64,000 nucleotides of DNA, from positions 1-64,000 of the forward strand of contig NZ_JAANMZ010000012.1 of assembly GCF_011250555.1 (NCBI RefSeq), given 5' to 3'. Of this stretch, positions 33,420 to 54,788 are shown in pieces; within the stretch, counting starts at the first letter, position 1; every line of letters starts with the position of its first letter. Under the pieces are notes generated by a model. The model was not told the origin of the DNA and did not search any database. It saw only the letters and a list, made by a program, of their open reading frames with translations. Made by a program: the position numbers and the translations under genes. The DNA is from Bacillus sp. MM2020_4. GTDB lineage: Bacteria > Bacillota > Bacilli > Bacillales > Cytobacillaceae.

Positions 33420-36400
33420 CTATATCTTCTCACTGATTAATGGCATTGACCCTTCCTTACCCTTTTGCTCTTGTTTAGAATTCTGTAAACTCTCATCAAA
33501 TTTATGATAGATTTTCAATGAGATGCTGGAGTCATCAATTTTCGTGTATTTGCGGTAGTTTGGATTTACGTACGTGCGTAATCCCAGGAAGAATCTCAAG
33601 TTTTCAATATTTTTATCCTCTAGTAATGAGGCGTATGTCGGGGTAAACAATTTCTGCGGAATGAAATTGATTACCTTTTTCTTCGCTCTCGTTAGTGAAA
33701 CGTTTAACCTGTTTAATGAGTAAATGAAATCAAGCTCTTTATGCGCCAGTTCGTAATCGGAGATGCCGTAGCTGATCAGGACGATTTCTGCTTCTTTTCC
33801 TTGGGCTTTTTCGGCTGTGTCAATTAAGGGGTGGGGAATATTCTTCTCATCTAGTTTTTCCTTAATCAAACGAATTTGTGCCTTGTGCGGGCAAACGATA
33901 AAGAGACGAGGTTCATCCCTTTCTTTGTCCCACCATAGATCTTCTTTATATTTCCGGGTTGTTTTGCAGTAGCCATCATAATAGTTTGCTAGCTGGAGCA
34001 CGAGTTGCATAATTAAATTGGCTTCTTCTTCGTTCTCCCTCCCGGTTTGTATGCCTTCTAGCATGCACAGTGTAAACGGGGCCTCCGGTGTCAGCATATC
34101 CTGCAGGTAATCAATATTGACGCTTATGGGGTCCAGTACCTGATGGGCAATATTCACATCAAATGCTTTATACGAGTCACCGTATTGGTTGTAAAGTTTT
34201 TCGGCTGAAAATCCGCTAATCACGTTGTTCATACGGAAATTGTCGATTAATTGGCTTGGCTTCATCTTTTTGGCCTCAATTAGATAGCTAAACAATGAAT
34301 GCGTGACAAACTTCTCCTCTTCTTCAAAATCGACAGTAAAGACCGGAGGAAGCTGATAATGGTCACCCACTAGCAATAGATGTCCATCTTGTTTCACTGC
34401 TCCCACGGCAATGAGCGATTCCGGAATCTTGACCTGTGAAGCTTCATCCATAATGACCATATCGTATTCTAACCAGTTTATTCGTTTTTTCAAATTAAAC
34501 ACTTGGATCAAAGTCCCCCCTGTAATCGTGACAGGATACTGATCAAGGAATTCTTCATATCTGGCAAATTGCCCAAAATAGTTTCGATCTAGCTGTTTAT
34601 CATAGAAAATATCTGAAAAAAAGGCATGCTTGGTAAAAGATTCTTTGTCGTTTGACCTCAGTCCACCAAATTTACAAAGACCGACTTGGGCATGCAGGCT
34701 GAGGTGCTTAAAACCAGATTTAGTTGACATGAATTTAATCATCTTTTCTAACCCATTCTCGATGGCTGAATGGGTCTGTGCCGTTAGTAAAATTCTAAAT
34801 GGACGAACTGTTTTGTTCTTTTGTTCCGCTTTCTCCAGAAGCTTTTTGCTGTAATAGAGGACAGAGTTGGCTATAAAAGTCGTTTTACCTGTCCCCGGAG
34901 GGCCGAAAAGCAATGTCAGCTTATTGCTGATGAGGTGCTCATACGCCTGGAGTTGTTTTTCTGTAAATCGGGTCGTACTGACAAGCACTTTCTTTTCTAG
35001 ATCAGAAAGGGTTTCCGCGTAGGGTTGATTATAGGTTAGAGGGTCTTTGATTAGTTGATAGGATACAGCAGGATTCGCATCACATTGATGAATATATTCA
35101 ACAATCTTCGCAGAAACACTATCGTAAAATACAGGAGATATATAATACGTACCTTTTTTCAAAAATGGAGCTTCTATGTCAGCTGAGTTGAAATACACCA
35201 AGTAGTGGTCATGGTCGATTTCTTTCGGCTTTGGCTTCTTTAGGTTGGCATCCACCATTTGGTTTAACTCTTCCAACGAATTAGGAGAACCATCGGAAAA
35301 TTTATAAACAAAGAAAGGCTCCATTTTATACATATATTCCTTGTTCATTACCCGATAAACAGCCGTTACCCCATCATCCTGTATGAATTCCACCTGCAGA
35401 GAATATCCACGTTCTGCCTGTTCGATCAATGGCTGCTGACGGGAAAGCTTTAGTTCATGAAATTGAGAAAATGCTTCAAATTTCGTAATGAATGCTAGCT
35501 TTGTACTTAATTCATCATCATACTTTTGAATGGGCGAAAATTCGATGCTTTGTGGGCTCCGTTTCAATTTTAGATTTTTTTCTCTTTCCACCATATAAAC
35601 AACAAACTGGCACCCTCTTAACCGGTCTTCTAGGATGGTCATCATTTGTTGCAAGGCTTTCTCTTTCTGATGACTGTCTGTGGCTTCCCAATATTCGTAG
35701 ACAGTGTCGGGCTTCATCGTATCTGTCATCTCGGTGAATAGACATTGCTCATTCCTATAAACTTTATAAACAGGAGGAAATGGCGACGAATGGAATCGAC
35801 CGAAGAATTCGGTTACGTTTTCAAGACTGTATTTGATTGGAATGGGCAAGGCAAAATTTCGCCTGACAAAGTCACCCACGATGGTGAATGGGAATGGGAC
35901 AATTTTTTCAAGCGTCTGTGTAGCTGTCAGGCCGCCAAGTGCCAGGAATTTCGATGAATAGAATAAAAACAGAATTTGCTGGGCCTTTTCCTTAATCAAC
36001 TCATCTTTCGTTCCTTTGACAACTTCACAAATGAGATGAATAAAATGGATCTGCTCGGATTTTTCATAAAAGTAGAAGTGAGTACTTTCTTTGTTTTTTT
36101 CTAAATAATCGTGAAGCTGTATAATGAAATTTTCGTAATATGGCAACGGATTTTGATAATGTTCTGGAATGATAAAGGATAATTGTTCGCCTGAAAAGGT
36201 TCGATTTGTGATGAAAAGGGCCCCATAAAATGTTCCATTAATCGATTCCCTTTGGATGGAAACAAACAGGTGATTTTCTACCTCCTTGGGTAAATCGAAA
36301 ATCTCTTTCTTTAATAAAAATCCCCTGTTTTCTCGTAAAGCCTTTATTTCGGTTTTTAAATTGTTTGCACGGTGCTTAAATGATTCACTTTTTTCAAGCA

Positions 36401-38123
36401 GCGATGGGTTCGTTACAAGTATGTGTTCTAGTGCCTGAATGGAAGGATAGTGATTGGATTCAACCGCGAATTCCTGCTTTTCCTGCCATTCTCTTAACAG
36501 ATCAGAAGCAAATGGACTAAATCCTTGTATCTTCGACAAGTGGTCCTTCTCCAAGACTTCCCCTTTACAATGGGCGAAAAATTTACATCCTTCACACACA
36601 CTTCCAAGATGAAAGTGTAGGGAAAGATAATCGTCCACTTCCAAAATCGAGGTCATCTCCTTTTGGAAAAAGGATAGAATAACGTCCCGAACAGGGGCAA
36701 GGTCAAAGGGTTGATAGGTAGTAAGGTCCTTCTTTGTCCAGACACCGCCGACTCCGTTTTCCGACATATCGATATAGAAGTGTTCATTTAGCTCCCTGTC
36801 ATGAAGAAGGAGTTCTTGTAAAATCATGCTGTAAAGGGTAACTTGGATTTTATGCGTTGGCTTGACTTCTTCATTTGATTTCATATCGATCACGGTTAGC
36901 TTATATTTCTCCGCATTCTCGTCTTTAGTAATTTCCACTAAATCTATTTCTATTGGCTTAATCCTTGGAATCTCCTGTTCTGTTTTATAGGTTTTGTAAA
37001 ATCTCTTCGGAACTTCCGAGGTGGACGAGTAAATATAGAACGGAAGAATTTCCTTTCCCCCACTGACTATTTTGTGGCGAATGGAGAGAAATTTTTTTAG
37101 CTGCTGGGTTACGTCGCTTACCGGATCCAATTTACTATTGGCATAAAACAATTCTTTTCTCGTTATTTCACTTAATACCGTTGCCTCCCACGTGAATCCT
37201 TCCTTGGTCTTTTTCGAGTGAAGATAGTGCGGGTCGATGCCGAAGTTCTTCTTTAAGTTCACGTCTGAGAAGCTATTTAAAAAGAGCTGTCGGTCACATG
37301 CAGTAAGAAAGTAAGTAGAAATAGCCGATACGGAAAGCTTTTGTTGAACCTGGGGAGAAGCAAGAGCCGGTATATCAAATTCCTCCAAATGGAATTTTCC
37401 TTTTCCACAATACTTCCAGCCTAATTGTTTGAAGCTTTCCCACAGATCATACGCATCGACAATCCTAGGACAATCATTTAATCGGCATTTGAAATTAATC
37501 GCGTAAACATCCTCGTCAAAGGTAAGCGCCAGCCTCGTATGTTCAGGAAATAGTTCATGAGTGATCTTTTGATAATCTTCTTCTTTTAAAAAGGCTATCA
37601 ATCGAGCGAACTGATTGATATGATTTAAGAATTGGTATCGTTTAGCCGCGGCCGAAAACTCAAAAGTAGCCACAAACCGCGCTTGATCTTCTTCATCGAA
37701 AACAAGAATTTTGATATCATGATTCGGTTTTAAATCCTTCAAGTGGTAGTGGGTGTTTCGGTTTTTGATCTCTACTTTTGTTTTGACACCGAGAAGGAGC
37801 AGAATCTCTTTTATTTCATGGACGCGCATATCTCCTAACCAGATTTCCGTATCTGCCTCATCTCTTAAAACCACGCAATAATCCCAGTATTCCATTTTTT
37901 TTAAATATACATTTTCTTCTACTTCATGAATAATCTTTTGTTTATTTCTGACAAATTGGATTACTGTCCCTGCATCAGGATTGATATTCTTAATTTTCAT
38001 AAAAGGACTTTCTCTGTGTGGGTAAATCTCGCATTCCACTACATTCGTAAAATAGTGTAGCACCCCTTTTACAAATTCCACCCCATCACCTGAAACCTTC
38101 GGCAAAAAATCAAAAACCTTCAT
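33420..38123 (-). CDS. Giant PD-(D/E)XK nuclease / RNase-H-like / SF1 (DNA2-NAM7) helicase fusion
   Basis: 1567 aa. (1) About 1-260: no recognised domain. (2) 261-530: Cas4/RecB-like nuclease with iron-sulfur cysteines C276, C510, C513 and C519 and catalytic candidates D394, D413-M-K415 and Q427xxxY431. (3) About 600-720: region like the RNase-H-type domain of TM0106-family proteins (YFYEKSEQIHFIHLI), acidic residues apparently lost. (4) 1050-1500: SF1 helicase with Q1057, Walker A GPPGTGKT 1074-1081, DEAS 1226-1229, GDHYQLPP 1253-1260, NFRMN 1295-1299, AQGKEAEIVLIS near 1440 and NVSLTRAKKK 1474-1483. It resembles DNA2-like and Nhi-type nuclease-helicases, but with an unusually long N-terminus. 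The adjacent downstream gene is a trypsin-like protease. Confidence 0.85.
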   Translation of the reverse strand: MKVFDFLPKVSGDGVEFVKGVLHYFTNVVECEIYPHRESPFMKIKNINPDAGTVIQFVRNKQKIIHEVEENVYLKKMEYWDYCVVLRDEADTEIWLGDMRVHEIKEILLLLGVKTKVEIKNRNTHYHLKDLKPNHDIKILVFDEEDQARFVATFEFSAAAKRYQFLNHINQFARLIAFLKEEDYQKITHELFPEHTRLALTFDEDVYAINFKCRLNDCPRIVDAYDLWESFKQLGWKYCGKGKFHLEEFDIPALASPQVQQKLSVSAISTYFLTACDRQLFLNSFSDVNLKKNFGIDPHYLHSKKTKEGFTWEATVLSEITRKELFYANSKLDPVSDVTQQLKKFLSIRHKIVSGGKEILPFYIYSSTSEVPKRFYKTYKTEQEIPRIKPIEIDLVEITKDENAEKYKLTVIDMKSNEEVKPTHKIQVTLYSMILQELLLHDRELNEHFYIDMSENGVGGVWTKKDLTTYQPFDLAPVRDVILSFFQKEMTSILEVDDYLSLHFHLGSVCEGCKFFAHCKGEVLEKDHLSKIQGFSPFASDLLREWQEKQEFAVESNHYPSIQALEHILVTNPSLLEKSESFKHRANNLKTEIKALRENRGFLLKKEIFDLPKEVENHLFVSIQRESINGTFYGALFITNRTFSGEQLSFIIPEHYQNPLPYYENFIIQLHDYLEKNKESTHFYFYEKSEQIHFIHLICEVVKGTKDELIKEKAQQILFLFYSSKFLALGGLTATQTLEKIVPFPFTIVGDFVRRNFALPIPIKYSLENVTEFFGRFHSSPFPPVYKVYRNEQCLFTEMTDTMKPDTVYEYWEATDSHQKEKALQQMMTILEDRLRGCQFVVYMVEREKNLKLKRSPQSIEFSPIQKYDDELSTKLAFITKFEAFSQFHELKLSRQQPLIEQAERGYSLQVEFIQDDGVTAVYRVMNKEYMYKMEPFFVYKFSDGSPNSLEELNQMVDANLKKPKPKEIDHDHYLVYFNSADIEAPFLKKGTYYISPVFYDSVSAKIVEYIHQCDANPAVSYQLIKDPLTYNQPYAETLSDLEKKVLVSTTRFTEKQLQAYEHLISNKLTLLFGPPGTGKTTFIANSVLYYSKKLLEKAEQKNKTVRPFRILLTAQTHSAIENGLEKMIKFMSTKSGFKHLSLHAQVGLCKFGGLRSNDKESFTKHAFFSDIFYDKQLDRNYFGQFARYEEFLDQYPVTITGGTLIQVFNLKKRINWLEYDMVIMDEASQVKIPESLIAVGAVKQDGHLLLVGDHYQLPPVFTVDFEEEEKFVTHSLFSYLIEAKKMKPSQLIDNFRMNNVISGFSAEKLYNQYGDSYKAFDVNIAHQVLDPISVNIDYLQDMLTPEAPFTLCMLEGIQTGRENEEEANLIMQLVLQLANYYDGYCKTTRKYKEDLWWDKERDEPRLFIVCPHKAQIRLIKEKLDEKNIPHPLIDTAEKAQGKEAEIVLISYGISDYELAHKELDFIYSLNRLNVSLTRAKKKVINFIPQKLFTPTYASLLEDKNIENLRFFLGLRTYVNPNYRKYTKIDDSSISLKIYHKFDESLQNSKQEQKGKEGSMPLISEKI

Positions 38124-38405: not shown

Positions 38406-39608
38406 TTACTCATTTAAAAATAGCATCGCAGTCTGCGCATAAATCCTTGATGCCTCGACTAATTCTGCTAGATCAATATATTCATTGATTTGATGTGGAA
38501 TATGACGGTCACCGGCTCCTGTTGTGACAATCGGAATCCCGGCAAGGTGAAGGAATGTGCCGTCAGTTGCACCAGGTACGCCGTTATAGATGGGTTCCTT
38601 TCCGGCAACTGAACGGAAGGATTCCACACTAGCTCTGACAATCGCATCGTCCAAACTCGTTTCTGTCCATGGCCGGCTTTCAATCACTTCTAGGGAAGCC
38701 TTAAAATCTGGATCCTTGGAACGCAATCGCTCTAAAATATCCTCCATATCAACCCGTAACTGGCCGTGGTTCTGCCCGGGAACGGTACGAATATCAAGGG
38801 TACTATAACATTGGTCCGGAATGACATTGATCTGTGGCTCCCCTCTCTCAGGTCCTAAAATGATCGTTGGCGTAATGCTTGGTAACCCTAAATATGGGTG
38901 TTGTCCGACTCGCTGTTTTTCTTTCTCCTCAAGTGCCATTAGTTCACAAATAATCTGCGCCATTCTCGTATTTGGATTGATTCCAGAAAGCGGCATGGCT
39001 CCATGAGCCATTTTCCCGTAAGTGCGGATGATGGTTCTCATCGCCCCTTTTTGCGTGATACAAATCTGATTTTCCTCCGGTTCGCAGATGATGGCACCGT
39101 CTACACCTTGTGCCCAGCCACGCTTAATGAAATGTTTTATGCCGATCATCATGCCTTCCTCATCGCAGGGAACACACAAAATAATTCTTCCATTCCATTT
39201 CACGTTACTTCGTTTAATCGCATGTACCGCTGCAATCGCAGCAGATAGATTTCCTTTTGTATCGTTTGTACCTCTGCCAAACATTCTGCCGCCCTCAATG
39301 GCAGCTCCGAATGGATCATAGCTCCAGGCATCCCAGTCACCCTCTGTCACAACATCGGTATGGCCCTCAAAGAGAATCGTTTTTCCGGGTCTGCCTGAAT
39401 CAAGAATACCAATGACATTCGGCCGCCCCTTGACGACCTCTTCGATATATACCTCAAGTCCTAAGTCCTTTAGATACTCATATACATACTGCGCCGCTCT
39501 GCTTTCATTTGCCAAAGGGTCGTGCGGGCGGTAGACACTTGGAATCCGAACAAGAGCTTGCGTCAAATTTACAACTTCCTGATCATCCACATCATTAAAT
39601 ACAGCCAA
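38406..39608 (-). CDS. M20-family amidohydrolase (ArgE/DapE/N-acyl-amino-acid hydrolase type)
   Basis: A 400-aa zinc-dependent amidohydrolase. Metal ligands are visible as H in LFEGHTDVV, D in GRGTNDTKGN, the Glu pair in VPCDEEG and H near the C-terminus in DRHIPHQINEY. M20 enzymes cleave N-acyl amino acids, and N-carbamoyl-beta-alanine hydrolases are members. It is the last gene of the sigma-54-controlled ECF operon. In the proposed pathway it is the best candidate to split pantothenate (N-pantoyl-beta-alanine). TTG start at 39608 with CGGAGGG upstream. The exact substrate is inference. Confidence 0.87.
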   Translation of the reverse strand: MAVFNDVDDQEVVNLTQALVRIPSVYRPHDPLANESRAAQYVYEYLKDLGLEVYIEEVVKGRPNVIGILDSGRPGKTILFEGHTDVVTEGDWDAWSYDPFGAAIEGGRMFGRGTNDTKGNLSAAIAAVHAIKRSNVKWNGRIILCVPCDEEGMMIGIKHFIKRGWAQGVDGAIICEPEENQICITQKGAMRTIIRTYGKMAHGAMPLSGINPNTRMAQIICELMALEEKEKQRVGQHPYLGLPSITPTIILGPERGEPQINVIPDQCYSTLDIRTVPGQNHGQLRVDMEDILERLRSKDPDFKASLEVIESRPWTETSLDDAIVRASVESFRSVAGKEPIYNGVPGATDGTFLHLAGIPIVTTGAGDRHIPHQINEYIDLAELVEASRIYAQTAMLFLNE

Positions 39609-39623
39609 CTAGAACCCTCCGTT

Positions 39624-40586
39624 TTATTGATTTTTTGGTAAATCTTTATAAGCGGTAATTCCCCCGATACTATCAGCGGATTTTATCGCATTAAGAATTG
39701 CCCTTTCCATGACCATCGCTGCCAACCCGCCAATAACATCTACAGGGATTCTTTCCCCTCCAGTGGCAACAGCGAAAATTGTATCACCATCAAACATGGT
39801 GTGCGCTGGAAAAATCGTTCTCGCATATCCGTCTTGGGCCATTTGCGCCACCTTCGTTGCCTCCGCCTTCGTTAACTCGGCATTCACCGCTACTACTCCA
39901 ATGGTGGTATTTGAACCGGCAGGAATGGTGGATTGATAGTTTTGTTCGAGAAGTTTGATACTATCAAGAATCATTCCATTCTTATACGGCCCAGCTAAAA
40001 TGTCACCCGTGGATGGTTCGCGGACATCCCCAGCTGGATTAACGGCAACAATGGCACCAATCACAACACCATTTTCTAAACGGAGTGATGCACTTCCGAG
40101 TCCGCCCTTCATACAAAAGCCGAGACCGGCTAATTTACCAGCAGTTGCTCCACAACCGGCCCCATAATTGCCAGTAATAAATTTCTCTGCCGTCGCCGCT
40201 TTTGCGGCATCATATCCCATCTGTTTGTCAGGCCGCATCTTTGGGTCACCAAAAGGGAGGTCGAATAGAACAGCTGCCGGGACAATGGGTACCTTGGCCA
40301 CACCCACATCCAGGCCAATATCTTCTTCCTCTAAAAATTGCATCACACCGGAGGCGGCATCCAACCCAAACGCACTGCCGCCACTTAAACAAATACCATG
40401 GACTTTTTCAACGAGATTTATAGGATTCAATAGATCGGTTTCCCGGGTTCCGGGCGCAGAACCTCTGACGTCCACCCCCGCAACTGCACCACTTTCAAAA
40501 AGGATGGCTGTACACCCAGTAAGGGCCTGGTGATCTTCTTTATTTCCAACTTTTACACCTGGAACATCCGTGATTTGATCATTCAT
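39624..40586 (-). CDS. P1-family peptidase/amidase (DmpA-like)
   Basis: A 320-aa member of the DmpA/P1 family of self-processing hydrolases related to L-aminopeptidase/D-Ala-esterase and beta-aminopeptidases. Family marks are the start (ITDVPGVKVGN), AGVDVRGSAPGTRETDLL, GICLSGGSAFGLDAASGVM and the segment GSNTTIGVVAVNAELTK, where the nucleophile at the processing site is expected. It lies 3 nt from the ECF S-component gene and 15 nt before the M20 gene, so it probably acts on the imported compound or a derivative. It is an alternative candidate for the amide-cleaving step. Confidence 0.87.
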   Translation of the reverse strand: MNDQITDVPGVKVGNKEDHQALTGCTAILFESGAVAGVDVRGSAPGTRETDLLNPINLVEKVHGICLSGGSAFGLDAASGVMQFLEEEDIGLDVGVAKVPIVPAAVLFDLPFGDPKMRPDKQMGYDAAKAATAEKFITGNYGAGCGATAGKLAGLGFCMKGGLGSASLRLENGVVIGAIVAVNPAGDVREPSTGDILAGPYKNGMILDSIKLLEQNYQSTIPAGSNTTIGVVAVNAELTKAEATKVAQMAQDGYARTIFPAHTMFDGDTIFAVATGGERIPVDVIGGLAAMVMERAILNAIKSADSIGGITAYKDLPKNQ

Positions 40587-40589
40587 TTT

Positions 40590-41141
40590 TTAAAGATCCC
40601 TGGAAATCTTTGATTTTTGACCTTTGCCAATCTGTTTCCACGCTAATACAACTGCTAACGTAACAATGGTACCAACAATGGCTTCAGGGATTCCGTTTGT
40701 TATGCCAACTGTCCAAGCAACTCCTGGGGTTAAATAATGACGGATGACAGCCATTGTTAACACAAGGACCGTGTTTGCCAATGTCCCGATAAAGGCGGCG
40801 GCTCCCACTGCAAGGTATTCACTCTTGCGACGGATTCCAACATAGATCAGCCATGCCACTACGCCAATGAAAAGCCGGGGTAAAATCGCAACCAATGGAT
40901 CCTTAAAGAGTGGAACGGTTGCATTTAGGAAGGAAGAAATTCCAAAAATAGCTCCAACTATTAAGCCGACGACCGGTCCCTGCATTATGCCACCAATAAT
41001 CGCAGGAATGTGCATGATCGTGGCATTCCCTGCTGCCGTTGGAACAGGAATATACCCCAACCTGGTTACCCCTAGTAGAATGGCTACCGCACCCAGCACA
41101 CCTGCAATGACAATATCGCGAACTGTTAATCCCTTTTTCAT
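40590..41141 (-). CDS. ECF transporter S component (PanT-like)
   Basis: A 183-aa membrane protein with six hydrophobic segments and a short positively charged tail. The segment ATIMHIPAIIGGIMQGPVVGLIVG, followed by FGISSFLNAT, closely parallels the pattern of PanT/CbrT-type substrate-binding components. It is encoded directly after EcfT, so this is a dedicated (group I) module rather than a stray S component. Pantothenate as substrate is inferred from this similarity plus the neighbouring enzymes. Start ATG at 41141. Confidence 0.85.
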   Translation of the reverse strand: MKKGLTVRDIVIAGVLGAVAILLGVTRLGYIPVPTAAGNATIMHIPAIIGGIMQGPVVGLIVGAIFGISSFLNATVPLFKDPLVAILPRLFIGVVAWLIYVGIRRKSEYLAVGAAAFIGTLANTVLVLTMAVIRHYLTPGVAWTVGITNGIPEAIVGTIVTLAVVLAWKQIGKGQKSKISRDL

Positions 41142-41177
41142 AGTATTTCTCCCCTTTTGTTTTTGGTATTTTTCACA

Positions 41178-42020
41178 TTAAAAAGGAAACGGATAAAAAA
41201 GCAGTAGGAAAGCGAATAAAAGTCCAACCAATAAAACAAGATAATCCTTTGCTAATGCTTGATACACGGAGTAGGAGCTCCTGTCGCCACCAGGTGTATA
41301 GCAGCGGGATTCCATGGCGAGAATTAAATCCTCGGCCCTAGACAAGGCGATATTAAATAACGGAATAATGATGGGAAACATTTCTTTTGTCCTTTGAATG
41401 ATTCTCCACCAGCCGCCGGTACCAAAGTCGGCCCCCCTTGACGCTTGTGCCTTCATCATTTTTTCCATCTCGATGGCGAAGGTTGGGACGAATCGAATGG
41501 CAATCGTTGTAATCAGCGAGATTTCGTGGACTGGAAAATGAATCTTCTTTAACGGACTGAGTAAGCTTTGAATGGAATGTGTTAATTCTGTGGTGGAAGT
41601 CGATAAGGTGAGAACACTGCTTAAGAAGATAATTTCAATAAACCGAACGGCTGAAACAATCACCAATCGAATACTTTCACTCGTGATGAGGATAAACCCA
41701 TAATCAACAAATACTTTGCCATCGGAAAAGAGCTGTCCTTGAAAAAGCAGCTGTAAAATGGCTAAGATAACAATAAACGGGATGGCTGGTTTCACACCTG
41801 ATAACCCATAGCTAATGGGAATTTTGGATCCCCAGAATAAATAGAGGGATAAGACTAAACCGATGGCATTCCCGATATAACTCGTATTCAGCGCAATCGC
41901 CATCACGAGAATGACAAAAGCAAGCAGCTTTATTCTCGGGTCTAACCGATGAATAAAGGAGCCGGTTGGTACGTACTGTCCAATGGTAATATTACGGGAT
42001 ATATCAAATTCGCTTGACAT
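41178..42020 (-). CDS. ecfT: Energy-coupling factor transporter transmembrane protein EcfT
   Basis: A CbiQ/EcfT-family protein of 280 aa with several transmembrane helices and the coupling-helix motifs ending in Ala-Arg-Gly (KAQASRGAD, and AMESRCYTPGG near the C-terminus). The start at 42020 (GGGAGGGG six bases upstream) is preferred to an ATG at 42053. It overlaps ecfA2 by 17 nt. It couples the S component to the two ATPases. A genome normally has another copy near rplQ/truA; this one is operon-specific. Confidence 0.92.
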   Translation of the reverse strand: MSSEFDISRNITIGQYVPTGSFIHRLDPRIKLLAFVILVMAIALNTSYIGNAIGLVLSLYLFWGSKIPISYGLSGVKPAIPFIVILAILQLLFQGQLFSDGKVFVDYGFILITSESIRLVIVSAVRFIEIIFLSSVLTLSTSTTELTHSIQSLLSPLKKIHFPVHEISLITTIAIRFVPTFAIEMEKMMKAQASRGADFGTGGWWRIIQRTKEMFPIIIPLFNIALSRAEDLILAMESRCYTPGGDRSSYSVYQALAKDYLVLLVGLLFAFLLLFYPFPF

Positions 42021-42900
42021 ATTTCGCCCCTCCCTTCCTGCCTGTAAGAACATTCAACACTTCATCAGCTGCTTCAGAGATGGAAAAGGCGTCCGTTTTT
42101 ACTTTGTATCCAAGGTCGCTTAATCGGTACAGAACTTTAACCGTTTCAGGGGTGCCAATTTGATAACGCTGCAGTTTATCTTTATCCGTAAAAATTTCTT
42201 TCGGGGTTCCTGTTAATACGTCGGTCCCATCTGCCATTACATATACCCGATCAGCTAGCATGGCCACCTCCTCCATATTGTGTGACACAAAAACGACAGT
42301 TAACTTTTCTTCCTTGTTTAACCGTTTCATTTTATCTAGTAATTCCTTCCTTGACCTTGGATCCAAACCCGCTGTCGGTTCATCAAGTACCAAAATCTTG
42401 GGTTTTAATGCAAGGATCCCCGCTAAGGCTACTTTTCGTTTCTGGCCGCCGCTTAAGGCAAAGGTCTGTCTGTCCTTCATTTCCTCAAAATCTAACCCTA
42501 CAACCGACATCGCCCATTTAACGCGCTCCCTCACCTCCTTTAATGGAAGGCCTAATTTGAAAGGCCCGTAGGCAATATCATCGCCAATAATTTTTTCGAA
42601 AATTTGGTCCTCCGGGTTTTGAAAGACAAGGCCCACCTTCTGTCTCAGCGTTTTTAAATCTACCTTTTTCTTTGACAGGTCTTCTCCATCTATGACTACC
42701 TTTCCGGATTCTGGACGCATTAGCCCATTGAAGTGCTGGATTAATGTAGACTTTCCTGACCCCGTATGGCCAATAATGGCAATGCATTCCCCTTCTTCTA
42801 CAAATAGGTTGGTTTCGTGTAAGGCGACATGCTCCATCGGGGTTCCTTTCATATACGTATGTGATAGGTTTTCAATTTCGATAATGGATCGCTTCGACAT
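42004..42900 (-). CDS. ecfA2: Energy-coupling factor ATPase (EcfA2-type)
   Basis: A 298-aa ABC ATPase with Walker A GHTGSGKST, Q-loop VFQNPEDQIFEKI, signature ALSGGQKRKVALAG and Walker B ILVLDEPTAGLDP. The FALSGGQ and GLDPR features and the C-terminal region fit the EcfA2 type. Its ATG overlaps the ecfA1 stop. Confidence 0.93.
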   Translation of the reverse strand: MSKRSIIEIENLSHTYMKGTPMEHVALHETNLFVEEGECIAIIGHTGSGKSTLIQHFNGLMRPESGKVVIDGEDLSKKKVDLKTLRQKVGLVFQNPEDQIFEKIIGDDIAYGPFKLGLPLKEVRERVKWAMSVVGLDFEEMKDRQTFALSGGQKRKVALAGILALKPKILVLDEPTAGLDPRSRKELLDKMKRLNKEEKLTVVFVSHNMEEVAMLADRVYVMADGTDVLTGTPKEIFTDKDKLQRYQIGTPETVKVLYRLSDLGYKVKTDAFSISEAADEVLNVLTGRKGGAKYVKRI

Positions 42901-43769
42901 TATCCCACCTCCTCTTTGGAGAGGTTATCCTCCTTGGAGAATTTCTCCACTTCTTCTATAAACTCCTGTTCTCGAATTAAGTCTTTTGAAAAATCAGATA
43001 ATTGACCGTGAATGACTTCGGCCATTTGGCTGACAGAGGGAACTTCTAATTGAAGTTTTTCTAATTCCTCCTTATGTTTAAAAGTTTCACGTGGCGTGTC
43101 ATCCATCACAATTTGTCCGCCCTCAATGACGATAATCCGGTCAGCTTCCGCTGCTTCTGACATATGGTGGGTAACGGTAATAATCGTCATTCCACTATTG
43201 TTCATTTTTCTCATCACCTGAAGAACTTCTTTTCGACCAAAACTGTCTAACATATTTGTTGCCTCATCAAAAACAATGCAATCCGGCTGCATGGCTAATA
43301 CTCCAGCAATCGCAACTCTCTGCTTTTGCCCCCCAGATAAATGATGGGGGGGTCGATGACGAAACGGAGACATTTTAACAACGTTTAGCGCGTCATCGAC
43401 TCTTTTTTTCATTTCTTCTCTTGGGACGCCAATATTCTCCAGTCCAAATGCAACATCTTCCTCTACGATCGTCGCAACAATTTGATTATCAGGATGTTGA
43501 AAGACGGTGCCAACAGAGCGACGAATATCCCGTTTCTTTTTTATATCCTTCGTGTTGTGGCCATGAACCCAGACGTCTCCGTCGTCAGGGGTTAAAATCC
43601 CATTAAGGTGTTTAGATAAAGTAGATTTACCTGAGCCATTGTGACCAATGATGGCCACATATTCTCCGGGAAAGATGGATAAAGAGATATTCTTCAGCAC
43701 GGATACTTTCGTTTTTTCGTTAATTTTGTAGGAAAACGATATATTTTCTAAGCGAATAATGGGTTCCAT
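42900..43769 (-). CDS. ecfA1: Energy-coupling factor ATPase (EcfA1-type)
   Basis: A 289-aa ABC ATPase with Walker A GHNGSGKST, Q-loop VFQHPDNQIVATIVEEDVAFG, signature LSGGQKQRVAIAG and Walker B CIVFDEATNMLD. A Glu-to-Asn-type change after DEAT is usual in EcfA1 proteins. It starts 26 nt after the SDR gene's stop, with no terminator between, so the ECF genes are probably transcribed with the upstream dehydrogenases. Confidence 0.93.
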   Translation of the reverse strand: MEPIIRLENISFSYKINEKTKVSVLKNISLSIFPGEYVAIIGHNGSGKSTLSKHLNGILTPDDGDVWVHGHNTKDIKKKRDIRRSVGTVFQHPDNQIVATIVEEDVAFGLENIGVPREEMKKRVDDALNVVKMSPFRHRPPHHLSGGQKQRVAIAGVLAMQPDCIVFDEATNMLDSFGRKEVLQVMRKMNNSGMTIITVTHHMSEAAEADRIIVIEGGQIVMDDTPRETFKHKEELEKLQLEVPSVSQMAEVIHGQLSDFSKDLIREQEFIEEVEKFSKEDNLSKEEVG

Positions 43770-43795
43770 TTTAAACTCCTTTCTATCGTTTTAGT

Positions 43796-44560
43796 TTAGA
43801 TTCCACGTCCTCCGTCAATATTTAGGACCTCACCGGTCACCATCTTAGCCAGATCAGAAGCTAAATAAAGTGCCCCTTTTGCAATATCCTCTGGTTGAAT
43901 TAATTTTCCCAGTGGGACACTATCTTGAAAGATCTTTTTCATTCCCTCTTCCTTTTGATCCTCATTTCCAACGAGGAACTTCCCAATCATAGGTGTATCG
44001 GCTGGGCCGGGATTAATGGCATTTACTCTAATTTGATAGGGTGCTAACTCGAGGGCTAATGCTTTGGTCAGCATAATCGCTGCCCCTTTTGATGCACAAT
44101 ACGCATTTAACCCGGGTCTCGCTCTGATACCAGCAATGGAAGCAATAGTAACAATACTTCCACTCTTTTGTTGTTTCATGATCGGAACCGCATACTTAGA
44201 GGTTAAAAAGATGGATTTGGTATTCACATTCATGATTACATCCCATTGTTCCACGGTTAATTCCTCTATCGATGTGAAGGATTGTGGAACACCGGCACAA
44301 TTAATGACAATATCCAATCCGTTATATACTTCCACTGTTTGATTCACAAGGTTTGCCACATCCGAATCATTCGTTACATCGGCTTGAATGGCCTGCACAT
44401 GGTTTACACCGGTGTCACTTGCCGCTGTTATGGCTGACTGAACATGTAAATCAGCAAACGTTACATTAGCCCCTTCATGAGCGAAAGTCTGCGCAATCGC
44501 TTTCCCCATTCCCGATCCTGCTCCAGTTACAATTGCCGTTTTTCCATTTAATATAGTCAT
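43796..44560 (-). CDS. SDR-family dehydrogenase (candidate pantoate 4-dehydrogenase)
   Basis: A 254-aa classical SDR: cofactor loop TGAGSGMGKA, ADV/NCAG, catalytic Ser in IASIAGI and Tyr-Lys in YCASKGAA, and a C-terminal NIDGGRGI. It clusters with glucose-1-dehydrogenase/FabG-like SDRs, so substrate cannot be read from sequence. Position between the decarboxylating dehydrogenase and the ECF genes fits the NAD-dependent oxidation of pantoate at C4 in the proposed pathway. Start ATG at 44560. Confidence 0.88.
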   Translation of the reverse strand: MTILNGKTAIVTGAGSGMGKAIAQTFAHEGANVTFADLHVQSAITAASDTGVNHVQAIQADVTNDSDVANLVNQTVEVYNGLDIVINCAGVPQSFTSIEELTVEQWDVIMNVNTKSIFLTSKYAVPIMKQQKSGSIVTIASIAGIRARPGLNAYCASKGAAIMLTKALALELAPYQIRVNAINPGPADTPMIGKFLVGNEDQKEEGMKKIFQDSVPLGKLIQPEDIAKGALYLASDLAKMVTGEVLNIDGGRGI

Positions 44561-44622
44561 AGGATAGACACCTCCGGTAATTTATACTTGAAATCCATTT
44601 TTTTCTCAAAAAGAAGCAGCAT

Positions 44623-45711
44623 TTAGATTTTAGGACTAAGGCTTAATTGAACCATTTTCGCGATAATTGCGTCCCCCATTTCAGTGGTTGTCGCCGTCCC
44701 CCTTAGGTCAGGTGTTCTTATCTTCCCTTCTACCAATACCCCTTCAATGGCATCTAGGATTAATTTCGCAACATCAGGGAGTTTAAGATGGTCCATCATG
44801 AGACTAAGGCTCCAAATAGAAGCGATGGGATTGGCGATTCCTTTTCCCGCAATGTCAGGAGCAGAACCATGGATCGGTTCAAACATGGAGGGATAGATCC
44901 GCTCGGGATTGATGTTCCCAGATGGAGCCAACCCTAATCCCCCTACTATCGCTGCCCCTAAATCTGTTAGAATATCACCAAATAAATTACTGCCCACAAT
45001 GACATCGAGTGTCTCCGGTTTAGAAATAAAATAGGTAGCAAGGGCATCAATATGGTAGAGCTGTGTTTTTACATCTGGATAACTATTCCCTATTTCATTC
45101 ACCATTTCATCCCAAAAAGGCATGGTAAAGTTAATTGCATTCGATTTTGTTGCCACCGTAAGATTTTTCTTTGCCCTTTTTTCAGCCATGGAAAAAGCAT
45201 AGTTTAATATTCTTTCAGAACCGAACCTAGTAAAAATGTTATTTTGCACAGCTAATTCATAGGGCGTTCCTTCATGAACCCGTCCGCCCATATTGGTATA
45301 CTCCCCTTCGGTATTCTCCCTAATGACAACAAAATCAAGGTCTTTATGGTCTTTATACCTTAATGGGCTTTCAATACCTTGAAGCAGTTTAATGGGCCGC
45401 AAATTCACATACTGTTGAAATTTCCGGCGAATAGGCAAAATGAGCTCCCACACTGAAATGTGATCTGGTACAGATTTGGCACCAACAGCTCCAAATAGAA
45501 TAACGTCGAAATCTTTTAATAGATCTAATCCATTTTCAGGCATCATTCTTCCATTTTGAAGATAATAATCACAGCCCCAATCAAAAGATTCAAAAGAAAA
45601 AGTCAAACCGCCGTGTATCTCTTCTACTATTTTTACTACCTTTATAGCCTCATTCATCACTTCCGGGCCAATTCCATCTCCCGGAATTAACGCAATTGAA
45701 AAGTGTTGCAA
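44623..45711 (-). CDS. Isocitrate/isopropylmalate/tartrate dehydrogenase family (candidate dimethylmalate dehydrogenase)
   Basis: A beta-decarboxylating NAD-dependent dehydrogenase of 362 aa, close to tartrate/D-malate dehydrogenases (TtuC/DmlA, B. subtilis YcsA). Features: ALIPGDGIGPEV at the start, the substrate region LRPIKLLQGIESPLR, VVIRENTEGEYTNMGG, and GLAPSGNINPE with EPIHGSAPDIAGKGIANP for NAD and metal. The start is the TTG at 45711 because AAAGGAG lies eight bases upstream; ATGs at 45732/45729 overlap that site. Dimethylmalate (2-hydroxy-3,3-dimethylsuccinate) is chemically a D-malate analogue, which suits the pathway proposal. Confidence 0.9.
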   Translation of the reverse strand: MQHFSIALIPGDGIGPEVMNEAIKVVKIVEEIHGGLTFSFESFDWGCDYYLQNGRMMPENGLDLLKDFDVILFGAVGAKSVPDHISVWELILPIRRKFQQYVNLRPIKLLQGIESPLRYKDHKDLDFVVIRENTEGEYTNMGGRVHEGTPYELAVQNNIFTRFGSERILNYAFSMAEKRAKKNLTVATKSNAINFTMPFWDEMVNEIGNSYPDVKTQLYHIDALATYFISKPETLDVIVGSNLFGDILTDLGAAIVGGLGLAPSGNINPERIYPSMFEPIHGSAPDIAGKGIANPIASIWSLSLMMDHLKLPDVAKLILDAIEGVLVEGKIRTPDLRGTATTTEMGDAIIAKMVQLSLSPKI

Positions 45712-45777
45712 CTCTATCACTCCTTTCATCAATCATTTCTATTCCCTGCATAAGATTTCCTTACCGTTGACACACGT

Positions 45778-47229
45778 TTATTCCGCGCTTTTTATTTTTA
45801 TCGCGATGTTTTTTAATTGCGTATAATTCCTTAGTGCTTCCACACCTTTTTCACGGCCAATTCCACTTTTTTTATAACCGCCAAATGGAAGTTCGACCCC
45901 ACCGGCTGCACCAAAGTCATTGATAAAGACCTGCCCGCTTTTCACTTTACTTGCAATTCTGTGTGCCCGTGATAGATCATTTGTCCAAATCCCTGTTACG
46001 AGACCATATGAAGTTCCATTTGCTAATGTAATAGCTTCCATTTCTGTTTCAAATTCAAATACAGTCAAAACGGGGCCAAAGACTTCCTCCTGAGCTATTT
46101 CACTCATTGGGGAAGCGTTTTCAATTATGGTCGGTTCAAAATAATATCCATCTTCCAACCCTTCCAGCTTTGCCCGCCTTCCACCCATGATGACACGTGC
46201 ACCTTGCTCTTTTGCTCTTTCAACCATTGCAAGTATTCGATCAAACTGCCTTTTTGAAATAATGGGGCCTAGCTCGCTGTCATGAACCCCAGGGCCTAGT
46301 TTAATTCTTTTCATTCTCTCGATTAATTTCTCCATCCATTCATCTTTAATTTTAGAATGAATGAGCAACCTTGAACCGGCAGAACATGTTTGACCCGCAT
46401 TCTGAATAATTGATCGTGTAACCCATGTAACCGCTTCTTCCATATCACAATCTGGAAAAACAATATGGGGTGATTTCCCTCCCAGTTCGAGTGTGACAGG
46501 AACAATATTTTTCGCCGCAGAGATCATTACACTTGTGCCGGTATTAACTGAACCAGTAAATGTGATGTGATTGACATCAGGGTGATTGACCAATGCTGCT
46601 CCTGCTTCTGTACCATAGCCTGTTACAACTTGTAGAGCACCTTTCAGGACTTCAATCTCGGAAAATATTTCTGCTAACGTTAAGGCCGATAGAGGAGTAT
46701 CTTCAGCAGGTTTCACCACCACTGTATTTCCAACCCCTATGGCGGCTGCCACTCCCCTTGAAGTGATCTGAAGTGGATAATTCCAAGGAATCACTTGCGC
46801 ACAAACACCCATTGGTTCACGAACCGTGTAGTCAATCACATTTGGCGCTACCGGGATGGTTTCTCCAAACATCTTATCCGCAACACCTGCATAGTACTCA
46901 AAATAGCGCGCACTACTTTCAACATCGCTTCTAGCCTGCGATAGCGGCTTGCCGGTGTCCAAGGTCTCAATTAAGGCAAGCTCATCAGATCTTTCACGTA
47001 CTTTTCGGGCAACCTCATAAAGTGCATTTCCCCTTATACCAGGTTTTACTGATTGCCATTCATTGGATTCAAAAGCATTTTTCGCCGCGGTTACTGCTTG
47101 ATGTACATCTTCCTTATTTCCCCTGGGAACTCTGGCAATTACCTCATGATTGGCAGGATTGTATGTTGGAAAAAACTCTCCAGAAACGGACTTTACCCAT
47201 TCACTATTGATATACATTTTTTGCTCCAT
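45778..47229 (-). CDS. NAD-dependent aldehyde dehydrogenase (candidate aldopantoate dehydrogenase)
   Basis: A 483-aa ALDH superfamily enzyme with the catalytic Glu in TLELGGKSP, catalytic Cys in NAGQTCSAGSRL and the IPWNYPLQ and GFGAAGG-like cofactor-site features. It is closest in style to betaine-aldehyde dehydrogenases. It is the first gene behind the sigma-54 promoter at 47325-47340. In the proposed pathway it oxidises 4-dehydropantoate to dimethylmalate. The aldehyde itself is not deducible from sequence. Confidence 0.92.
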   Translation of the reverse strand: MEQKMYINSEWVKSVSGEFFPTYNPANHEVIARVPRGNKEDVHQAVTAAKNAFESNEWQSVKPGIRGNALYEVARKVRERSDELALIETLDTGKPLSQARSDVESSARYFEYYAGVADKMFGETIPVAPNVIDYTVREPMGVCAQVIPWNYPLQITSRGVAAAIGVGNTVVVKPAEDTPLSALTLAEIFSEIEVLKGALQVVTGYGTEAGAALVNHPDVNHITFTGSVNTGTSVMISAAKNIVPVTLELGGKSPHIVFPDCDMEEAVTWVTRSIIQNAGQTCSAGSRLLIHSKIKDEWMEKLIERMKRIKLGPGVHDSELGPIISKRQFDRILAMVERAKEQGARVIMGGRRAKLEGLEDGYYFEPTIIENASPMSEIAQEEVFGPVLTVFEFETEMEAITLANGTSYGLVTGIWTNDLSRAHRIASKVKSGQVFINDFGAAGGVELPFGGYKKSGIGREKGVEALRNYTQLKNIAIKIKSAE

Positions 47230-47324: not shown

Positions 47325-47340
47325 TGCAATTCTTGTGCCA
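47325..47340 (-). promoter_or_regulatory. Sigma-54 (-24/-12) promoter of the ALDH-ECF operon
   Basis: Minus-strand TGGCAC-AAGAA-TTGCA is an exact match to the sigma-54 consensus TGGCAC-N5-TTGCW. It lies about 95 bp upstream of the aldehyde dehydrogenase start and downstream of an enhancer-binding protein gene. Confidence 0.9.
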
Positions 47341-47381
47341 TGATTATTAAATTCTAAAAAGTCTGAAATATAAAGAAAAAA

Positions 47382-47399
47382 CAGGGATAAAAAACCCTG
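47382..47399 (-). terminator. Terminator of the enhancer-binding regulator gene
   Basis: CAGGG / CCCTG with an 8-nt A/T loop, followed on the minus strand by TTTTTTCTTT. It isolates the regulator transcript from the sigma-54 promoter. Confidence 0.75.
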
Positions 47400-47420
47400 C
47401 TAGTAAAAACGATGTTTTGA

Positions 47421-47441: not shown

Positions 47442-49292
47442 TTAAAACGTTAAATTATATTCCTTTATTTTTCTCCAAAGGGTGGATCGGTCTATTCCCA
47501 GTGATTGGGCCGCTAACTTTTTATTATGATCAAATTTTTCAAGCGTTGTGAGAATGAGTTCTTTTTCCTTATTTTTTATACTATGTTTATTGGTTGTTCC
47601 TTCGGAAAACTGCCGTTTCCTTATTTTTTCAGAAAGAAATTTTGCCCCCTGAAGTCTTAAACTATCACTCTCTTCCAGAACCACCATCCGTTCAATCGTA
47701 TTCCTTAATTCACGAATATTCCCTGGCCAGTCATACTTCTGAAATAAACAAATCAATTCTTTTTCAACGGTTATAATTTTATTTTTTCTTTTGTCATTAA
47801 ACTCATCTAGGAAAGATTCCACCAGTTTAGGAATATCGGCTAAGCGTCCACGTAGAGGCGGCAATTCCAAAGCAAGCACATTTAGCCGGTAATAAAGGTC
47901 AGAACGGAATTGTTTCTCTTCAACCTCCTCCTCTAAATTTCGATTTGTTGCTGTAATAATTCGAACATCCACTGGTATGATCCGTTCTCCACCCACACGT
48001 CGAATAGTCCTTTCCTGAAGCACCCTTAATAAGAGAGCCTGAATTCTTAACGGTATCTCACCAATCTCATCTAAAAATAGGGTACCTCCGTGTGCAAGTT
48101 CAAATAAGCCGGGCTTGCCATCTTTTAGCGCACCTGTAAATGTGCCTTTCTCATATCCAAACATTTCACTTTCAAGAAGATTTTCTGGTAAAACCGCGCA
48201 GTTTACGGCTACAAAGGGGCCAAGTGATCGATGACTTGCTGAATGAATCCCTTGAGCAAATAATTCTTTACCCGTTCCAGACTCACCGGTTATTAGTACA
48301 GTTGATTCCGTTTCAGCAAATTTCCTTGCAAGTTCTTTTGCCTCCATTATTTCATGCGTTTCCCCAATAATGTCACTTAATCGATACTTTGCTTCCAAGC
48401 CATTTTGATGAAGTTTTTTACGAAGTTGTAATTCTACTTTTTGAATATCTGTAATTTCTTTAAAATTTGATACTGCCCCGACAATTTTTCCTTTGACGAT
48501 GACAGGAGACCTATTGATAACAATTTGACGCCCTCCTACAGTAGCAATATCGCCCCTTTCAATCTTCCCGGCTTCTAATACACGTAACATATCCGATTGT
48601 GGGATGAAATCCGTAATGTTTCTTCCCTTCATATCCTCTTCAACTCCCAAAATTGTTTTGGCATGTTCATTCACCAATCTAATATTCCCTGTTCTGTCAA
48701 TCGCAACAACACCATCATGTGTGGAATTGACGATCGCATCTACTTGATACCGTTCATTTAAAATTTCCTCATTTAACTTCACTAATGAGCCTGCTATTTG
48801 TAAAAAAGGAATCACAGAAGTGAAAGCAGGCTTAATAAAATGTACATTTTTAATCCTAGGGTTAGTAATGAAGCCTTTCATCCATATTGGGGCCAGGTAT
48901 ACATGATTCGGCTTCGGTCCAGTAGATTGTTTTTCTGTTACAATGGTGAGTTGAATTTCATCCTTCACCACCTGTTCTCCATTTTCTTTTCTTAACCACT
49001 CGATTTCTTCACTTGTTGTTAGAAACGAATACTCGCTTTGCTCGGGATGATCAAACAATCGCTTTATATTCTTTTTTATATCCTCTATGGTGATGGGGAT
49101 AGGGATAATAGGAAAGGTAAGACCCTCCAATTCTTTCTGAAAAATAGCAGGTGTAATAATAACCATTGGGTTCATGATCTGATCTAATATTGAATTAATC
49201 GAATAAAAACTAGCCGTTGGGTATCCCATATCCTTTAATACCTTTATCATTTGGTCTTCATATAAATCATTCATTTTATAAAGGGCTATCAA
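47442..49292 (-). CDS. Sigma-54-dependent enhancer-binding regulator (PAS-AAA-Fis)
   Basis: 616 aa. Residues 1-170 form a sensory region of PrpR-N/unknown type, 180-290 a PAS domain ([18 protein letters not shown]), and 305-545 the AAA+ domain with Walker A GESGTGKE (336-343), L1 loop GTFTGA (383-388, variant of GAFTGA) and Walker [10 protein letters not shown] Fis-type HTH ends the protein ([22 protein letters not shown]). It has no receiver domain, so it is ligand-sensing rather than two-component. It lies directly upstream of the sigma-54 promoter of the ALDH-ECF operon and is its likely activator. TTG start at 49292 behind GAGGTGATAGA. Confidence 0.92.
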
Positions 49293-51202: not shown

Positions 51203-52369
51203 TTAGTAGGATTTAGGCAATCCAAGTACATGTTCACTGATATAATTGAGCACCATCTGCTGAGAGATTGGGGCAATTTTTAATAGCCTTGCTTCACGCC
51301 AATATCTTTCTACATGATATTCTTTGGCATAACCGAATCCTCCGAAGGTTTGCAAGGCTCTATCACAAGCTTCAAATACCACTTCACCTGCCATGTATTT
51401 GGCCGTATTAGCTTCAGCGCCGCTAGGAAGCCCCTTATCATAATTGACAGCGGCACGCTGCCACAATAGTTCTGCAGCTTCTAACTTTGCATAACTATCA
51501 GCAAGAGGATGCTGAATCGATTGATTCTTCCCGATCGGACGGTTGAACACGACTCTCTCATTTGCATACTTTATGGCCTTTTTCAATGCTACCCTCCCTA
51601 ATCCGCAGAATTCTGCAGCTAGCAATATCCTTTCCGGATTTAAGCCATCAAGCAAATGATAAAACCCCCTGCCAACCTCACCAACGACATCACTAGCGTC
51701 AACCGGAAGGTCCTCAATGAATAATTCATTCGAGTCAACGGCATGCCTTCCAAGCTTCTCAATCTCCCGGATCGTCGTATATCTTTCATCCAAATCCGCC
51801 AAAAATAATGTCATGCCCTCGGTTCTCTTTTTACACTCTTTTAATGGTGTGGTTCTTGCAAGCAATAACACTTTACTAGATTCTTTCGCTTTTGTATTCC
51901 AAACCTTTTGGCCGTTGATGATATAACGGTCCCCGTCCTTGCGTGCAAAAGTAGAAATGCTTGGAGTATCAGAGCCTGCATCCGGTTCGGTTACGCCAAA
52001 GGAAACATGGAGATTTCCTTTGGCTGCTTCTGGGAGGTACTTTTGTTTCATTTCCTCCGAACCATGTTTGACAACAGGGTTTAATCCGAACATGGAAAGG
52101 TGCAAAGTGGTTCCGCCGTTCATTCCCGCACCCGATTCAGCAACTGCGTGTAAGACTATCGCGGCCTCCATTATTCCCAATCCAGCGCCTCCATATTTCT
52201 CGGGGATGGCTATCCCTAACCAGCCGCCCTCCGCAAAGGCGTTATAGAATTCCCAAGGAAATCGATGGTCATGATCACAATTCATCCAATAATGATCATC
52301 AAACTGTGAGCAAAGTCTACTAACCTCTTTTTTTAACGTTATCCGCTCAGGTGTCCATCCAAAATCCAT
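51203..52369 (-). CDS. Acyl-CoA dehydrogenase
   Basis: A 388-aa FAD-dependent ACAD. N-terminal domain with FGVTEPDAGSDTPSI and KVWNTKAKESS, middle beta domain, C-terminal helical domain with ERILLAAEFCGLGRVALKKAIKYA and the end-segment YAKEYHVERYWREARLLKIAPISQQM. It introduces a double bond into an acyl-CoA, presumably the thioester made by the CoA-transferase encoded at 55656. Acyl specificity not readable. Confidence 0.92.
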   Translation of the reverse strand: MDFGWTPERITLKKEVSRLCSQFDDHYWMNCDHDHRFPWEFYNAFAEGGWLGIAIPEKYGGAGLGIMEAAIVLHAVAESGAGMNGGTTLHLSMFGLNPVVKHGSEEMKQKYLPEAAKGNLHVSFGVTEPDAGSDTPSISTFARKDGDRYIINGQKVWNTKAKESSKVLLLARTTPLKECKKRTEGMTLFLADLDERYTTIREIEKLGRHAVDSNELFIEDLPVDASDVVGEVGRGFYHLLDGLNPERILLAAEFCGLGRVALKKAIKYANERVVFNRPIGKNQSIQHPLADSYAKLEAAELLWQRAAVNYDKGLPSGAEANTAKYMAGEVVFEACDRALQTFGGFGYAKEYHVERYWREARLLKIAPISQQMVLNYISEHVLGLPKSY

Positions 52370-52448
52370 TTGATCCCATCCTTTTAATAAGAATTAACAA
52401 TTTATTTATAAACTCCATTGGCAAATAATAATAGATTGTTTTTGATAG

Positions 52449-54771: not shown

Positions 54772-54788
54772 ACTTCCATACCTATTTT

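Follow-up and report, generated by a model that had tools for sequence, protein, structure and literature searches.

Nine tightly packed genes on the minus strand of a contig of Bacillus sp. MM2020_4 are proposed here to form a sigma-54-controlled catabolic operon for vitamin B5 (pantothenate) with a dedicated importer, a reading given a probability of about 0.84. The genes occupy positions 38406-47229 of the window, meaning the whole stretch of DNA that was analyzed (64,000 nucleotides, positions 1 to 64,000 of contig NZ_JAANMZ010000012.1, assembly GCF_011250555.1). In order of transcription they encode an aldehyde dehydrogenase (ALDH), a TtuC-like decarboxylating dehydrogenase, a short-chain dehydrogenase (SDR), the energy-coupling factor (ECF) importer proteins EcfA1, EcfA2 and EcfT, a PanT-like S component, a P1/S58 hydrolase (P1) and an M20 metallo-amidohydrolase (M20). 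Spacing between neighbors ranges from a 50-nt overlap (EcfT/EcfA2, using longest-ORF starts) to a gap of 62 nt, and the description in a first-pass annotation of this DNA, nine consecutive minus-strand genes of these families spaced by no more than about 65 nt, was borne out by the open reading frames and family matches. The gene arrangement is not a product of chance, because the block A1-A2-T-S-P1-M20 is also present in distant genomes and in dozens of 80 named loci, which were collected by S component and annotated with tblastn.

Pantothenate degradation by Pseudomonas has been known as a set of activities since the 1960s: EC 3.5.1.22, EC 1.1.1.106, EC 1.2.1.33 and EC 1.1.1.84. In the window operon each of these steps can be paired with a single gene whose family suits the reaction, and the end products would be beta-alanine and 2-oxoisovalerate. 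This operon is from the Bacillota and is known from its genes, whereas the Pseudomonas pathway is known from its activities. In the proposed pathway, whose substrates, step order, reaction directions and inducer are predicted from gene content, protein families, intact catalytic residues, a conserved promoter and gene linkage, the PanT-like S component with EcfT, EcfA1 and EcfA2 would bring in pantothenate and perhaps pantetheine-like amides, and P1 would probably hydrolyze such amides to pantothenate. M20 would split pantothenate into D-pantoate and beta-alanine, the SDR would oxidize the C4 alcohol of pantoate to give 4-dehydropantoate, the ALDH would convert 4-dehydropantoate to (R)-3,3-dimethylmalate, and the TtuC-like enzyme would turn (R)-3,3-dimethylmalate into 2-oxoisovalerate by oxidative decarboxylation. 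Beta-alanine would leave via an aminotransferase and a malonate-semialdehyde dehydrogenase encoded elsewhere in the genome.

Pantothenate is very likely the substrate of this pathway. The first-pass annotation had already suggested this substrate, a four-step route with one fitting gene per step, and genetic coupling of the pathway to a vitamin importer. The first suggestion gains support from the PanT match, the binding residues, the replacement of the importer by PanF and the beta-alanine, PanB, PanE and CoaX genes that neighbor homologous clusters; the second agrees with families and linkage; the third is upheld by the PanT-like ECF importer in the operon and by PanF at homologous operons.

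Importers of the operon and its relatives

The strongest single argument for pantothenate is that two unrelated pantothenate importers are found with the same enzymes. The same bacterial order was searched with the TtuC protein of locus L171 and the surroundings of 35 matches were examined, and DUF997-PanF-M20-TtuC-SDR-ALDH operons were present in many genomes. The PanF sodium/pantothenate symporter (TIGR02119) is of a family unrelated to ECF and is not in the window operon, but together with DUF997 it holds the importer slot of homologous operons in relatives. All of the PanF proteins at homologous operons (16/16) match the NCBIfam panF equivalog TIGR02119. PanF and M20 were found in 13/20 loci with the dehydrogenase trio (TtuC, SDR and ALDH) compared to 0/15 solo TtuC loci (Fisher p 6e-5), though here, as in all comparisons, shared ancestry makes the counted loci non-independent and the authors set the thresholds themselves. 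Additionally, ECF-linked and PanF-linked M20 proteins interleave within one clade. Locus L171 itself carries PucR, beta-alanine aminotransferase, methylmalonate-semialdehyde dehydrogenase (MMSDH), DUF997, PanF, an amidase in place of M20, TtuC, SDR and ALDH. The genome with this PanF-amidase-trio operon (G175) is 100% complete; it lacks PanC, and nothing in it matches PanB above the cut-off, so the strain is apparently a vitamin B5 auxotroph that carries a putative B5-degrading operon.

EcfA1, EcfA2, EcfT and the S component are contiguous in the window, which is the group I ECF layout, and this layout is kept in homologous loci. When a profile was built from five close S-component homologues, PanT chains were its sole PDB matches (4rfs_S, 4e-13; 6zg3_C, 2e-5). 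Fold matches to the AlphaFold model of the S component (predicted local distance difference test, pLDDT, 74) were headed by PanT at ranks 1 and 2 (template modeling score, TM, 0.62-0.69) with RibU close behind, and identity to PanT across the fold alignment is about 32%. Mutation of L. brevis PanT identified W64, R95 and N131 as pantothenate-binding residues (PMC7755397). The window equivalents of R95 and N131 (R89 and N123) are invariant in 81/81 S-component homologues, whereas the position of W64 is Phe in 81/81. The identification of the S component as PanT-like in the first-pass annotation thus holds on the profile match, the fold match and two of three binding residues.

The lactobacillus ECF-PanT systems (PDB 4RFS, 6ZG3) are therefore the known importers to which the window S component is closest in sequence and fold, with the Arg and Asn of the pantothenate site in common and Trp64 exchanged for Phe. 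However, lactobacillus PanT uses a shared module (group II), whereas the window operon encodes its own A1-A2-T (group I) linked to degradation genes. Several homologues of the window S component occur on their own in plain importer operons (L040-L050, L052). A divergent QueT-like gene lies near nine of these (L040, L041, L043-L045, L047, L048, L050 and L052), and their genus has both a plain and a catabolic copy, since L035 and L052 are from one strain. In Chloroflexi loci, several of which come from metagenome bins, the type III pantothenate kinase gene (CoaX) comes after the S gene or lies close to it; in others the S gene faces panB-panE.

The two hydrolases

M20 is considered with good confidence to be the pantothenase. 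It is the candidate because M20, or an amidase, is present in every S-component locus that has two or more of the dehydrogenases nearby, while P1 is dispensable. The association was counted among the 65 loci with enough flank, 26 of which had two or three of the dehydrogenases close to the S gene; M20 or a replacing amidase was present in 26/26 of these (Fisher p 5e-7). P1 was missing from 3 of those 26 loci and from all 13 PanF-M20-trio operons. The M20 metal ligands and catalytic Glu are kept, with H83, D116, E150, E151, E176 and H372 invariant in 41/41 homologues, and the enzyme that stands in for M20 in L030, L033, L034 and L036 is an amidase-signature protein with intact Lys and Ser motifs. 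The first-pass annotation had left the cleavage of the beta-alanine amide to "M20 or P1"; the locus counts favor M20 (or the replacing amidase) and reduce P1 to a dispensable accessory.

P1 matches ThnT and nylon hydrolases, and it has their fold, their family and their Asn-Thr autoproteolysis site. At this site (Asn226-Thr227, with Thr227 as the predicted nucleophile) Thr is found in 51/51 and Asn in 49/51 homologues. ThnT, the pantetheine hydrolase of thienamycin biosynthesis, releases cysteamine from the pantetheinyl group of a pantetheinylated carbapenem (PMC6097109), whereas P1 sits in a catabolic operon and its function is predicted only. An OPT transporter gene adjoins P1 in L164 and L166, and yeast Opt1 takes up pantetheine in the form of a glutathione disulfide (PMC12406275). 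Because of the kinship to ThnT, the kept Asn-Thr site and the adjoining OPT gene, the chances are slightly better than even that P1 acts on pantetheine-type amides and yields pantothenate. The presence of CoaX in the P1-bearing loci L101 and L102 gives a further indirect hint.

The most viable alternative retains the whole pathway but makes P1, as an N-terminal nucleophile (Ntn) hydrolase working via an acyl-enzyme, the pantothenase, with M20 acting on something else. The Pseudomonas pantothenase reportedly forms an acyl-enzyme intermediate, a mechanism more easily reconciled with an Ntn or amidase-signature enzyme than with a metalloenzyme. P1 also adjoins the S component in most loci and is related to hydrolases of omega-amino-acid amides, and the fact that a serine-type amidase can replace M20 suggests that the chemistry is not bound to one fold. 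However, this alternative is unlikely and was marked down because a number of loci that carry the pathway have no P1. These include four ECF operons (L075, L083, L087 and L091) in addition to the 13 PanF operons, while every locus in which two or more trio genes lie around the S component has M20 or the amidase. P1 without M20 occurs in ten loci, and two of these (L101, L102) are beside CoaX, where destruction of pantothenate makes little sense.

The dehydrogenase trio and substrate specificity

The SDR, ALDH and TtuC-like enzymes are encoded together, and the trio recurs beside both ECF and PanF importers. Their assignment to steps follows the route of the known pathway, in which the last step is a good match for a D-malate-type enzyme given that pantoate has the (R) configuration. 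The Ser/Tyr/Lys residues and the NAD-type Asp37 of the SDR are invariant in 27 homologues. The full window-like operon is present in L031, L032 and L038. In Fictibacillus, Brevibacillus and others the operon has an ALDH of another family and, in some cases, a major facilitator superfamily (MFS) gene; in Fictibacillus and Brevibacillus the ALDH slot is filled by a second family about 32% identical to the first. Some Brevibacillus loci have no local dehydrogenases, and a TtuC 71-73% identical is found elsewhere in all of these genomes (11/11). The surroundings of six of these distant copies were read and contain ALDHx, SDR and a similar activator.

The window TtuC-like enzyme is of the same family as TtuC/DmlA (tartrate/D-malate dehydrogenase, TIGR02089) and would carry out the same oxidative decarboxylation of an (R)-malate-type acid. 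In a tree of 71 TtuC proteins, from which L233 and L224 were omitted by length and stop filters, one branch (SH-aLRT 95) parts trio-linked from solo TtuC. The specificity-loop motif also differs, being WELI(L/M)PIR in the trio-linked proteins and W(G/D)(L/M)L(L/I)(P/K)IR in the solo proteins. Gene context and the tree argue for dimethylmalate rather than tartrate or D-malate as the substrate of this enzyme. Plain tartrate or D-malate utilization was also considered as a function and lowered, since the 15 solo TtuC loci lack the importer and M20 and the trio-linked TtuC proteins are separate on the tree.

A second alternative is that the operon degrades some other N-acyl amino acid to a malate- or tartrate-like acid, with an S component of other specificity and a TtuC-like enzyme that acts on D-malate or tartrate. 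This would be in line with the NCBIfam name of the TtuC-like protein, with an S component that is only about a third identical to PanT and has lost Trp64, and with the trio loci that have TRAP transporters and no pantothenate importer. It is nonetheless quite improbable, because PanF replaces the ECF importer in the same gene set, beta-alanine catabolic and pantothenate/coenzyme A (CoA) genes adjoin homologous clusters, and trio-linked TtuC is set apart from solo TtuC.

Several observations do weigh against the assignment to pantothenate, as does the dependence among loci mentioned above. The TtuC-like protein passes the NCBIfam tartrate dehydrogenase model TIGR02089 at 526.8 bits (cut-off 470.4), the S-component model is of moderate confidence (pLDDT 74, TM ~0.65), and ALDHx and SDR are present in L035 and L039, where a close TtuC is missing. 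The trio loci L205, L207 and L208 (with TRAP transporters) and L219, L220 and L226 are without PanF, ECF, M20 or amidase, and the trio may therefore have additional roles with other hydroxy acids or with free pantoate. In locus L224 (8483-11583) a window-like TtuC (81% identical) and activator (71%) are accompanied by an M24 protein, another M20-like hydrolase and an SDR unlike that of the window. The L224 TtuC was classed as solo, and its inclusion in the tree would break the perfect split. Perhaps in L224 the same regulator and step serve another N-acyl substrate. The L224 transporter is a non-PanF member of the sodium/solute symporter (SSS) family.

A DctPQM-type tripartite ATP-independent periplasmic (TRAP) transporter is encoded beside the trio in L142, L205, L207, L208, L215 and L216, with a GlcD-like FAD oxidase in L142 and L205. 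The substrate taken up at these loci may be free pantoate or some other hydroxy acid. L142 is the sole locus of the Brevibacillus type that was read gene by gene, and there the TRAP transporter genes come after the trio; L143-L147 are trio loci grouped with L142, the TRAP genes having been seen in L142 itself.

Operon organization and regulation

A gene for a sigma-54 activator and a -24/-12 promoter adjoin the operon on its 5' side (Table 1); neither was in the first-pass listing. Sigma-54 activators commonly mark catabolic operons, and this one is probably the regulator of the window operon. An orthologue is located immediately 5' of the operon in 22 other loci. A predicted structure of the activator, made without an alignment, was uninformative (pLDDT 36). 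The site at 47340..47325 is the single exact match to TGGCAC-N5-TTGCA within the 64-kb window. An equivalent site was found 5' of the first operon gene in 21/22 homologous loci with the activator directly upstream and a short intergenic region, a count that leaves out L082, which was discounted for its long region (22/23 if it is counted). The background was 214 sites in 2.9 million strand-bases, or about 0.02 expected per intergenic region. Both elements of a sigma-54-dependent operon, an activator gene and a -24/-12 site, are thus present.

Table 1. Features of the candidate pantothenate operon and its 5' region (window coordinates)
Feature	Position	Strand	Family or supporting match
M20 metallo-amidohydrolase, predicted pantothenase (EC 3.5.1.22)	38406..39608	-	PF01546/PF07687
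P1/S58 Ntn hydrolase, predicted pantetheine/pantothenamide-type amidase	39624..40586	-	PF03576
PanT-like S component, predicted substrate-binding	40590..41141	-	PF12822; best PDB matches PanT
EcfT transmembrane coupling protein	41178..42053	-	PF02361
EcfA2 ATPase	42004..42900	-	TIGR04521, 367 bits (cut-off 330)
EcfA1 ATPase	42900..43769	-	TIGR04520, 365 bits (cut-off 315)
Short-chain dehydrogenase, predicted pantoate 4-dehydrogenase (EC 1.1.1.106)	43796..44560	-	PF13561
TtuC/DmlA-type NAD-dependent decarboxylating dehydrogenase, predicted (R)-3,3-dimethylmalate dehydrogenase (EC 1.1.1.84)	44623..45732	-	PF00180, TIGR02089
Aldehyde dehydrogenase, predicted (R)-4-dehydropantoate dehydrogenase (EC 1.2.1.33)	45778..47229	-	PF00171
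Sigma-54 -24/-12 promoter TGGCACAAGAATTGCA	47325..47340	-	exact TGGCAC-N5-TTGCA consensus
Terminator-like hairpin and T-run between activator gene and operon	47380..47401	-	pattern scan, consensus match; number in region no greater than in shuffles
Sigma-54 (enhancer-binding) activator	47442..49292	-	PF00158, PF00989, PF02954: PAS, AAA+ with GTFTGA loop, Fis-type helix-turn-helix; N-terminal domain without family

Beta-alanine and pantothenate synthesis

Genes for MMSDH and a class III aminotransferase adjoin the operon in L017/L018, L055, L060 and L077, which fits the proposed fate of beta-alanine. In the genome of the window strain a PucR-MMSDH-aminotransferase operon is found on another contig (G000:C62, L151), where pyrimidine-degradation-like genes adjoin PucR, MMSDH and the class III aminotransferase. 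The same genome carries panB and panC, so the strain can also make the vitamin.

The least probable alternative is that the operon serves mainly salvage, the importer and P1/M20 supplying pantothenate or beta-alanine for CoA and the dehydrogenases coming from an unrelated pathway that shares the operon; the panC and panB genes of the window strain, the tie of the trio to M20 or amidase in 26/26 loci and to PanF-M20 operons, the sigma-54 activator usual in catabolic operons and the MMSDH and aminotransferase genes adjoining several clusters all speak against it, while plain ECF-S loci without hydrolases (L040-L050), P1-only loci beside CoaX and the ability of bacteria to split pantothenate and reuse its beta-alanine (PMC10393543) would agree with it.

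Relation to earlier work

The biochemistry of this pathway is old; as far as can be seen, the novelty lies in its genes, in their link to an importer and in how they are regulated. The pantothenase protein was stated as not known in 2023 (PMC10393543), and a 2007 list of validated orphan activities included 1.1.1.84 and 1.2.1.33 (PMC1940265). A full-text literature search found no gene-level account of the pathway, though most subscription papers were outside its reach, so this is weak evidence. The operon provides candidate genes for pantothenase, pantoate 4-dehydrogenase, dehydropantoate dehydrogenase and dimethylmalate dehydrogenase, activities that apparently had none. It also suggests that a high-affinity vitamin importer has been put to feeding catabolism, with PanF as a second importer family in the same slot. 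If this is true, many Bacillales, Brevibacillus and relatives are able to deplete their environment of vitamin B5. This would have a bearing on how microbial communities share vitamins, and also on the annotation-pipeline names "tartrate dehydrogenase" and "ArgE/DapE deacylase".

A possible second route in anaerobes

Some clusters combine M20 with the enzymes that make pantoate. L166 has DUF997-PanF-M20-aminotransferase-PanB-OPT-P1-PanE-AOR in a genome that is 99% complete, has no PanC and has no other PanB copy. L165 has GABAT-M20-PanF beside AOR-PanE-PanB-FTHFS, L167 has M20-PanF-DUF997 beside TRAP-FTHFS-FolD-PanB-PanE, and in the Chloroflexi loci L080, L093 and L098 PanB-PanE is divergent from ECF-M20-P1-S. 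AOR in L165 and L166 is an aldehyde ferredoxin oxidoreductase, and FTHFS in L165 and L167 is formate-tetrahydrofolate ligase. No recognizable PanC was found in four of the genomes, namely G513 and the three Chloroflexi genomes (L080, L093, L098). One tentative proposal, put at somewhat under even odds, is that in these anaerobes pantoate released by M20 would be oxidized to ketopantoate by PanE, after which PanB, working in reverse, would cleave the ketopantoate to 2-oxoisovalerate and methylene-tetrahydrofolate. From the C1 unit of the latter, FolD and formate-tetrahydrofolate ligase would give formate and ATP. It is possible instead that the PanB-PanE clusters of L165-L167 and the Chloroflexi carry out ordinary pantoate biosynthesis, or that a PanC escaped recognition. 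If the backward route is true, vitamin B5 would be fermentable via its own biosynthetic enzymes, a route so far unreported.

Neighboring genes in the window

Two neighboring RraA-like genes (PF03737; 49480-50951, minus strand) lie just 5' of the activator. These and an acyl-CoA dehydrogenase gene 5' of the activator were considered as operon parts and dropped, as their homologues were not found beside other clusters. A further minus-strand series of catabolic-looking genes at 51203-62132 (acyl-CoA dehydrogenase, MaoC-like, SDR, CoA-transferase III, AtuA-like, MFS and TRAP DctM) suggests another degradation cluster. Directly 3' of the operon (33420-38123) is the gene for a protein of 1567 aa whose C-terminal part is of the helicase type (AAA_11/AAA_12).

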